Assembly (NCBI GenBank): GCA_030141605.1
Contig: JAQGDQ010000691.1
Coordinates: 1-64,000 of the forward strand
Length of the DNA stretch: 64,000 nucleotides
From: Tubiluchus corallicola
Lineage: Eukaryota; Priapulida; Priapulimorpha; Priapulimorphida; Tubiluchidae
Direction of reading: 5' to 3'
The translations under genes and the position numbers were made by a program. A model generated the notes under the pieces. That model had not been told where the DNA came from. It made no database searches and saw nothing but the letters and a program-made list of their open reading frames with translations. Positions 16,501 through 64,000 of this stretch are shown here, in pieces; the first letter of the stretch is position 1; every line of letters begins with the position of its first letter.

Positions 16501-19500
16501 CCCCCACGTGAACCGATAGATGCAGCCATTTTGAGAGTCGTTTGGAATAAATTTAGGTAACTTAGCGTAAAAATTTGAAAATATAATCAGAGCATACTCT
16601 TCGCTAGCTAATCACAAGTTGAAATGACGTTATATTGCCAATAAGAACAATGATGTGTTATTTGGTGAATCAGTGGTGCACGCTGGGATACCGATGCAGT
16701 GCAGGTGGTGCAAACATCTTAAATTACTAAATAATTTCTTTTCTAATTACAGAAGTCTCTCAAACAGGTAAGCGTAATGTAAAGTCATATAAGTTTGTGT
16801 GGGAAGGCAACTTAAATAAGGCAACGAAACTTCTTAATTTTTTGTTTAGTAGTTTTAACGCATGCTCACTTGTTTACATGCTCTTCAAAAGAACTCTGTG
16901 TTGGATTATAATTTATTATTCACTCAGATGAAGCAGGTTATTCTTTGAAACATCATAGTTTTAATTAACGAATGATTGTTGTTTCAAACGCCATTGCTCG
17001 TGCTACAACTTATCGCTTCTATGACCATGTAACCATCAATTTCAGGAACTGCATCAGTTGCATTGGCAGGAGTTCTAGCTAGTCTTCGCATTACGAATTC
17101 AAAACTTGCTGACAACACTTTCCTGTTTCAAGGTGCCGGTGAAGTAAGTTCTCTTGAAGTACTTTTAAGGAACACAGATATTTCATCGCAAGTTAGAAGA
17201 ACTTCATAGAACCTTAGAATCCCACGTGAATAAATCCTTATTTATTTGTCCATTGTGTTGATCTCCTCTCTGCTTTCTTTGAATGTGCAACGAGTTACCT
17301 CATCAATTTTTCTTTGTTGTAAATCATTCTTCCTTTCAGTTTCCTTTCCGCATTTCATAACTTAGATCACTATTAGCTAATGTTAGGTACTGTTTTTCCT
17401 TAGAATGTCGTTTCTTATACACGGCCTTCCCTTTTTTACCCATTTAAGTTTAAGTATTGTTAGCCTTGCTGTTCTATTGTGCGAAATAAATAGATCTTAT
17501 ATCTCACATCTTTTAGAGCGATTCATTATTGTTTGTGAAACCATGAACATTGCTGTGACAAAAAATAAAAACTGCAAATTAAGTACATAGTTTTTAGGAC
17601 AAAGCTTGTTAAAAATACGATAAATATCAATGCTTGTAACAGTGACGATTCTTTTGTTAATATCGTTAGATTTATGAGAACAATCTGTTTAGGAATTGTT
17701 TTAATTTAAAAAGAATTTAGTAACCTTTATACTATTCAAGTAAAATATCTATTTTTGTCTATTTTTGGGGACTAATTTTCCTATGAAAATTTTAACGTAG
17801 TTATTGATTTGTGTGAAAAGACCAGGTCCTATGTGATATACCGTATTTTCCCATGTATAAGAGACCCTTTCAATTTTTAGGCAAAAATTCTGGAAAAAAG
17901 TTTTTTGGTAATGAATAACTTTATTCATCATAGAAATCATTAAATTCCTCATCACTCTCATCAAAAATATCAACTGGAGTCAGACCTGTGTCACGATGCT
18001 TGTATTGCTTACAACCGCTTCATAGTCGAACGCGACACGCCTTGCTTAGGCTGACTCATCTCGTTGACCTCTGCCGACGTATCAATGACGTCGACGGGCA
18101 TGCAGAGAGCTTATGCAGATGCGTTGATTGGCTGCAGAACAATCGATTTCTCTCCAATACCAAAGAGACATTTAAAAAAATAATAACTTACCCGGTACAT
18201 TAATTTTATCATTAGAATTTAGCCATGGAGAAGATTTATTGAAAGGAAACTATAATTATTCGAAATAAAACAGTTGTAGAGCACCTATTTTTAAAGTGAA
18301 AATTCTGAGCAAAAAAGGGTCTCTTATACATGGGAAAATACGGTACTCCACATTTTTTTGGTTATGACTAAAATGTTGTCCTCGTTTATTCAGGCTAATT
18401 TGGGTATCGCTAAGCTAATTATGCTCGCCATGGAAGAAGAGGGGACCCCAAACGAGGAGGCCATTAAGAAGATTTGGATGGTCGACTCCAAAGGTTTATT
18501 AGTTAAGGTAATAAACTAGATTTAAAATAACTGAACGCGTTTTTGCTGTTACTGTGACGCAGTTTTTACACAAAATAATCTTCTTGCACAAATGTGGTAG
18601 AGCAGTATTGAAGGTGCGTGTGGGCGGGCTGTATTTTTGGAGCATGATATTGTTAGAACATAAGCGGTAGTGTAGGATATTGGACTGCTCTCCGCTTTTA
18701 ATGGAGGCAGGACAGATGGCACCACACTGTGCGGCATGTCCCAAGTAAGTCCTTCAACACCAAACCCAAACAGAACCCGAATAATAGAGTCGAAATGACA
18801 ATTTATTACTACATATTACACCACCAATAAGGAACAAACAGTTTACCTAGAAGAACGGAGTTTGTGGCAAAGCCTGTGAAATGTGAACAGAGCTGCAATG
18901 AAAGACACGACCCCTGATAAGGGTCTACAGCAGACCTTCCCTTTTTATAAGCTCAGGTGTGCACGTGACTAGTGGCTTTTACTAACACAAGGTCAGAATA
19001 TGAGTCTGTGCTAGATAAAGCCACGTTCACATGCACACCCGAGAAGTCTACTGTATTCCCCTGCCAGCATTACATTTCATTTCACCACAGCCCTGTAATA
19101 CAATATTTTAGGAAAACTCAATAAGATAAGATTTGGATGAAATGAAAAATTCGTGTCGTACATTAAGAGTGATAAATCAATAATTAAATTCAACAAGAGG
19201 CATATTCACCGTTTTGTCAGATTAAAAACGTACGTCAAAATCAACGATACAATAAAGATATAAATTTTAATGCTCTCATTGATATCGATGTTTTTAATTT
19301 GCACCAGATTTTCCCAGAACCAAAGTTTGTTCCATTTTGTCTCATGTACAGTTTGCAAACTTTAGGATGAAATACATTAAGCTTTTCAAGTAACAGGTAG
19401 TAGCGTTTCCTAAAGAATATGGTGCTGTGCAAGTTCAAAAAAATATTCTTCAGTATGAAACGTCTTTTTTAGGATATAAAATACAATAAGCTTTTTCATG

Positions 19501-63900: not shown

Positions 63901-64000
63901 GTTAGTAAAAGCCACTAGTCACGTGCACACCTGAGCTTATAAAAAGGGAAGGTCTGCTGTAGACCCTTATCAGGGGTCGTGTCTTTCATTGCAGCTCTGT
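57676..64000 (-). CDS. ME: inverted malic enzyme copy, last four exons (continues past window)
   Basis: Minus-strand exons 62737-62626, 61103-60961, 59374-59204 and 57939-57676 mirror the last four exons at 20150-25210, with conserved splice sites, phases and stop. I noticed only synonymous differences: CCC to CCT (Pro) in the FPGQGNN exon and CCG to CCA (Pro) in the YPP motif of the last exon. The partner of exon 18394-18507 would lie just beyond 64000, so whether this copy is complete cannot be seen. No disabling change is visible. Confidence 0.95.
58471..59122 (-). pseudogene. mirror of non-LTR retrotransposon 3' end
   Basis: Frame 59064-58831 differs from the left copy at several residues ([18 protein letters not shown] versus P-F-C-G-T..I-I-Y-Q-G-P-K), in contrast to the silent differences in malic enzyme exons. 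Confidence 0.7.
59204..59374 (-). CDS. ME: malic enzyme exon ([13 protein letters not shown]), right-arm copy
   Basis: Same 57 codons as 23518-23688 with one silent change. The 41-bp donor duplication is present here too (second donor at 59163-59162). The adjacent intron near 59380-59480 shows several differences from the left arm. Confidence 0.96.
59513..59908. repeat. mirror of 49-bp minisatellite
   Basis: Eight units; lacks the 4-bp GTGG expansion of the left array. Confidence 0.96.
60961..61103 (-). CDS. ME: malic enzyme exon (ALSNPTS), right-arm copy
   Basis: Identical by eye to 21784-21926, including both splice sites. Confidence 0.96.
61290..61898. repeat. mirror of 46-bp minisatellite
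   Basis: Same copy number and unit order as 20989-21597. Confidence 0.96.
62178..62215. repeat. mirror (ATT)n microsatellite
   Basis: Inverted counterpart of 20671-20709, essentially the same length. Confidence 0.95.
62375..62584. repeat. mirror of 105-bp tandem duplication
   Basis: Inverted counterpart of 20303-20512. Confidence 0.92.
62626..62737 (-). CDS. ME: malic enzyme exon ([11 protein letters not shown]), right-arm copy
   Basis: Identical by eye to 20150-20261. Last malic enzyme exon before the window ends. Confidence 0.95.
62990..63363 (-). repeat. mirror of repeat family copy 1
   Basis: Inverted counterpart of 19524-19905; a long stretch here is identical between arms. Confidence 0.75.
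63813..64000 (+). mobile_element. mirror of candidate LTR, cut by window end
   Basis: Starts TGTAATCCCGGCAGG and contains TATAAAAAG at 63937-63945. About six differences from the left copy occur in the first 54 bases, denser than in most of the arm. Confidence 0.38.

Follow-up and report, generated by a model that had tools for sequence, protein, structure and literature searches.

A near-perfect inverted repeat with 40.7-kb arms in the Tubiluchus corallicola assembly is probably a fold-back artefact of a single-copy locus

The palindromes of mammalian sex chromosomes hold complete genes and have unique sequence to their left and right. Assemblies of highly heterozygous genomes also contain false duplications, whose copies usually represent the two alleles and lie on separate contigs or head to tail. 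Inverted duplications in humans have spacers of 766–70,466 bp (median 3,428); inverted microhomology, where present (13 junctions), measures 2–8 bp, and at least 2 bp arises by chance in 134 of 1,000 simulations (PMC3907307). Among chimeras formed by multiple displacement amplification (MDA), 337 of 475 were inverted and joined sequences under 10 kb apart (PMC1855051).

Here we analysed the first 64 kb (hereafter, the window) of a T. corallicola scaffold (G000:C2174, 111,659 bp; genome of 343.5 Mb in 2,344 pieces), which opens with a near-perfect inverted repeat. Like the sex-chromosome palindromes, the repeat has long arms, more than 99% identity and a short spacer; unlike them, its genes are truncated and it has no left flank. 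It resembles false duplications in that the locus is represented more than once, the contig ends at tandem repeats, and a second haplotype is left over (on another scaffold, C2067), but the copy is inverted, lies within one contig and is apparently of the same haplotype. Human fold-back duplications share with it the inverted copies, a short single-copy spacer (1,498 bp here), 2 bp of inverted microhomology (a weak likeness, given the chance rate above) and the loss, in C2174, of the sequence beyond the spacer; array, PCR and sequencing data from patients prove those duplications, however, whereas the present repeat is known from the assembly and its arms end with the contig (PMC3907307). As in the inverted chimeras of MDA, neighbouring stretches are joined in inverted orientation through short complementary ends and the piece between them is skipped, yet each of those chimeras is one molecule formed in amplified DNA, for which this form is well described (PMC1855051), whereas here the assembly would carry such a chimera on for 40 kb, in DNA that may or may not have been amplified.

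Extent and layout of the inverted repeat

The repeat occupies bases 1 to 82880 of the scaffold as two 40.7-kb arms. When the full scaffold was compared with itself, 1–40690 matched 82880–42189 at 99.54% identity over 40,716 columns, with 136 substitutions; within the 64-kb window, 18887–40690 matched 64000–42189 at 99.60% over 21,819 columns. Size and identity are far beyond chance. The giant inverted repeat of the original prediction is therefore borne out and is larger than was stated, each arm being about twice as long as the window shows. The outer limits given for it (18887 and 64000) mark only the end of the window, where the arms are indeed unfinished, and its inner ends (40687 and 42192), rightly described as sharp, lie three bases inside the true edges (40690 and 42189) because 40688 and 42191 mismatch. 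Both arms stop at the identical base, which is the scaffold start (1) on one side and 82880 on the other, directly before a run of N (82881–86241, either a gap or withheld sequence) that is followed by an end block (86242–111659). The features of the window are as follows.

1–40690, + strand: left arm (A), matching 82880–42189 at 99.54% and starting inside a 28-bp minisatellite
7480–25207 (start approximate), + strand: arm A copy of a malic enzyme gene, lacking the 5' end, recognised exon by exon with Pfam PF00390 and PF03949
28182–42196, + strand: stretch with a linear, non-palindromic counterpart (C2067 1–12608), collinear at ~91–98% by block
38119–41569, − strand: 3' part of a TMEM50-like gene, of which the spacer holds exon 4 and arm A holds exons 5 and 6
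40690–40691, no strand: left spacer edge, across which C2067 is continuous and a ~540-bp dispersed repeat (~40489–41028) is unbroken
40691–42188, no strand: spacer of 1,498 bp, single copy in C2174 and outside both arms, holding one TMEM50-like exon
42188–42196, no strand: right spacer edge, the new joint, with 2 bp of microhomology (GG), where the C2067 alignment stops
42189–64000, − strand: right arm (B), the reverse complement of arm A, extending past the window to scaffold position 82880

Several other properties of this sequence were recorded. Long minisatellites are unusually many (1–1222, 3321–4406, 13579–15530, 26507–28175 and 29876–30286, with mirrored places in arm B). A 129-codon frame at 35958–36344 (+ strand; mirrored at 46532–46921, − strand) had no Pfam match, and we take it to resemble the C terminus of the reverse transcriptase encoded by non-LTR retrotransposons. 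Outside the window, the end block contains an open frame of 1,201 codons (96456–100058, − strand) with abundant Asp, Asn and Glu, likewise with no Pfam match. Two further pieces of the assembly, C1989 and C701, are exactly 40,000 and 320,000 bases long, suggesting that some scaffold pieces were cut at fixed steps.

A linear counterpart and two incomplete genes

A query with the spacer returned a single long homologue, at 10317–12600 of C2067. The first 30 kb of C2067 align in order with 28182–42196 of the window and then diverge, at most ~10 bases from the right spacer edge. The order on C2067 is inner arm, spacer and then different sequence, with no palindrome, and no long inverted repeat was found in its first 30 kb. 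The ~540-bp dispersed repeat is whole at the left spacer edge and cut at the right one. Because C2067 and this dispersed repeat both run through the left edge only, that edge (40690/40691) is original continuous DNA, and the right edge (42188/42189) is a new joint, at which the spacer end AAACAGGG abuts GGGAAGATGCG of the inverted arm, the two sharing 2 bp. The joint is placed where C2067 enters low-complexity sequence, ~500 bp in all, which comprises a TA/CA tract followed by ~400 bp of (CT)n. At its other end, C2067 starts at the equivalent of 28182, directly after a minisatellite; because it begins right after such an array, the contigs of this assembly seem prone to breaking at tandem arrays.

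Two convergent genes had been predicted in the palindrome, and both are present in each arm, but neither is whole within an arm plus the spacer. For the TMEM50-like gene, a PF05255 match in the spacer (41417–41569) corresponds to exon 4, whereas exons 1–3 are missing from C2174 and lie on C2067 at ~22.0, 19.3 and 13.2 kb (exons 3 and 5 are weak by Pfam, and exon 6 was recognised by motif only). Members of this family were found only on C2067 and C2174 in the whole genome; by its exon content, the gene is complete only on C2067, and in C2174 its 5' exons are lost at the joint. The last exon of the gene is contained in a direct tandem duplication of ~1.3 kb (36842–38166 and 38154–39478, 99.9% identical, mirrored at 43401–46037), where C2067 appears single-copy; either a recent duplication event or a second fault of the assembly may explain it.

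The exons of the malic enzyme gene lie in arm A near 7.5, 9.08, 10.4, 15.6, 17.0, 18.4, 21.8, 23.5 and 24.9 kb, those matching PF00390 and PF03949 spanning 9077 to 25207 and the extra one near 7500 being recognised by motif only. Their order agrees with that of the solved malic enzyme 1gq2, of which the exon at 9077 matches residues 135–189. The N-terminal exon (residues 15–67 of 1gq2) was located at scaffold positions 89223–89381 on the − strand. A motif search between this exon and the arm exons did not find residues ~68–104, and the missing piece may lie inside the run of N. Judged by exon content, arm B, the run of N and the end block together make up one malic enzyme gene, and since the N-terminal exon is in the end block, the arm A copy is headless. 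Malic enzyme matches were also detected in intronless long frames of 771, 774 and 464 codons (C279 107827–108225, C1997 8066–8464 and C128 17304–17702, respectively); these frames look bacterial, and some contigs of the assembly may derive from bacteria associated with the animal.

Only when end block, arm, spacer and C2067 are placed in this linear order are both genes intact. Dispersed repeats aside, samples of the outer arm matched the two arms only, and the sampled C2067 continuation past the joint and the sampled pieces of the end block had one occurrence each, all among the best-scoring candidates and outside withheld stretches, so that further copies could exist.

Differences between the arms

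The outermost 9,254 bases of both arms are identical, including 28-bp and 23-bp arrays. Substitutions are otherwise clustered, 83 of the 135 neighbouring pairs lying within 25 bp of each other (~11 expected); several kilobase-long stretches lack any substitution, and clusters reach ~10% difference. Transitions account for 73% of the 136 substitutions, and the three that fall in recognised malic enzyme exons are all synonymous. In the inner arm, where C2067 can serve as an outgroup, it sides with either arm A or arm B at each substitution, and private changes relative to it occur in both, sometimes a few bases apart. Simple patches copied from C2067 find no support as the source of the arm differences, given that private changes of both arms are interleaved within a few bases.

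Between the arms, substitutions amount to ~0.3% and the tandem arrays are nearly equal in length. Both arms differ from C2067 by ~4% in well aligned positions (~8% including indels), array lengths differ as well (an 18-bp unit has 23 copies in the arm and about one in C2067), and C2067 carries an inserted element of roughly 400 bp relative to the arm. Because the arms share near-equal array lengths and C2067 differs from both, they look like two renderings of one haplotype, into which alleles of others were introduced here and there through either consensus building or gene conversion.

These comparisons disfavour one cause that had been put forward for the repeat, namely that the assembler joined two haplotypes, in which case arm A would come from one parent and arm B, attached tail to tail, from the other. 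The patchy arm differences do resemble natural alleles, and C2067 could then be a third haplotype, if the sample was pooled, or a paralogue. However, at the one locus compared, C2067, the apparent allele, stands ~4% and many indels apart, with other array lengths and an inserted element, whereas the arms are 99.54% alike with nearly equal arrays, and in a diploid the two arms cannot both be alleles if C2067 is one as well. We consider this joining unlikely.

Origin of the repeat

We think it probable that the palindrome arose when one single-copy locus was folded back, in the assembly or in the library, and that it is not a chromosomal palindrome. Such an artefact accounts for a symmetry that fills the contig, for the existence of a linear counterpart, for the splitting of both genes, for the copy counts and for a joint situated at a difficult tract. 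The repeat runs from end to end of the contig, and its locus exists in linear form elsewhere in the assembly. The most likely true order is the end block (86242–111659, inverted), a gap, the arm, the spacer and the C2067 continuation. The original prediction had called a palindrome of this size rare; a real palindrome of that kind finds no support in the gene structure, in the layout from the first base to the run of N, or in the intact linear C2067. Among the causes it listed, while noting that the cause itself was not seen (a recent inverted duplication, a fold-back amplification or two joined haplotypes), fold-back describes the joint well, and an assembly artefact is the likeliest cause.

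Under such a fold-back, the starting material would be a one-haplotype stretch with the 28-bp minisatellite at one end and, at the other, the TA/CA and (CT)n tract that lies immediately beyond the spacer. At this difficult tract, the stretch would have been extended into its own reverse complement, via a false join or a chimeric read that had self-primed or template-switched, with 2 bp of microhomology at the join. The second writing would run to the same end point, where the run of N and the end block follow. The clustered arm differences would arise where the consensus drew on reads from other haplotypes. We infer that a chimeric read was involved and that no such palindromic molecule exists in the organism. 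Against an artefact, a pure copy of one contig would show no differences, yet there are 136 substitutions; the arms being non-identical, a source of other alleles must therefore be assumed. Also against it, the overlap at the joint is just 2 bp, so that the joint was probably present in some molecule or read, whether real or chimeric. Nor is the symmetry decisive alone, as the arms of a real palindrome longer than the contig would likewise stop at one and the same base had their assembly broken off at a shared minisatellite.

A real, young fold-back inverted duplication would have formed when a broken end folded back via the 2 bp of microhomology, left a 1.5-kb loop and was copied outward, with C2067 as the other, linear chromosome. 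The animal or its germ line would then carry a duplication with arms of at least 40.7 kb in which the TMEM50-like gene is truncated, most of the malic enzyme gene is duplicated, and patches of other haplotypes have already entered via gene conversion. The anatomy is like that of human inverted duplications (PMC3907307), the arm differences are natural-looking (mostly transitions, with private changes on both sides), and the adjoining (CT)n tract could be a fragile site. Nevertheless, the arm ends coincide exactly with the scaffold start and the run of N; the end block, of which there is one copy, would need to be part of the duplication; and the continuation lost from the palindrome is found on C2067 only. 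Clusters of ~10% difference beside difference-free kilobases also misfit new mutations in a young duplication, and we hold this origin to be unlikely.

Far less credible still is an ancient palindrome of the genome whose arms stay alike through gene conversion between them, as happens on the sex chromosomes of mammals: it would account for high identity with patchy residual differences, but both genes are truncated in arm A plus the spacer, leaving nothing obvious to conserve, and the palindrome would have to postdate the split from a linear counterpart merely ~4% diverged in aligned positions. Three further candidates were rejected. Reads with a missed PacBio hairpin adapter turn back without a 1.5-kb single-copy spacer, and such a spacer is present here. 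A heterozygous inversion of the spacer (a graph walk through arm, spacer and inverted arm) disagrees with C2067, in which the spacer has the same orientation, and with both joints carrying the C2174 version. Of a mobile element flipping between terminal repeats there was no sign, the dispersed repeat crossing the left edge only.

If the repeat were real, it would be a fresh fold-back duplication at an early stage. If it is the fold-back artefact that we favour, ~40 kb of the assembly is falsely doubled, with an extra malic enzyme copy that lacks its head and a TMEM50-like gene cut short, and the present scaffold hides that C2174 probably adjoins C2067. The locus would also provide a test case in which a contig-filling palindrome with a linear counterpart is recognisable from gene structure without reads.
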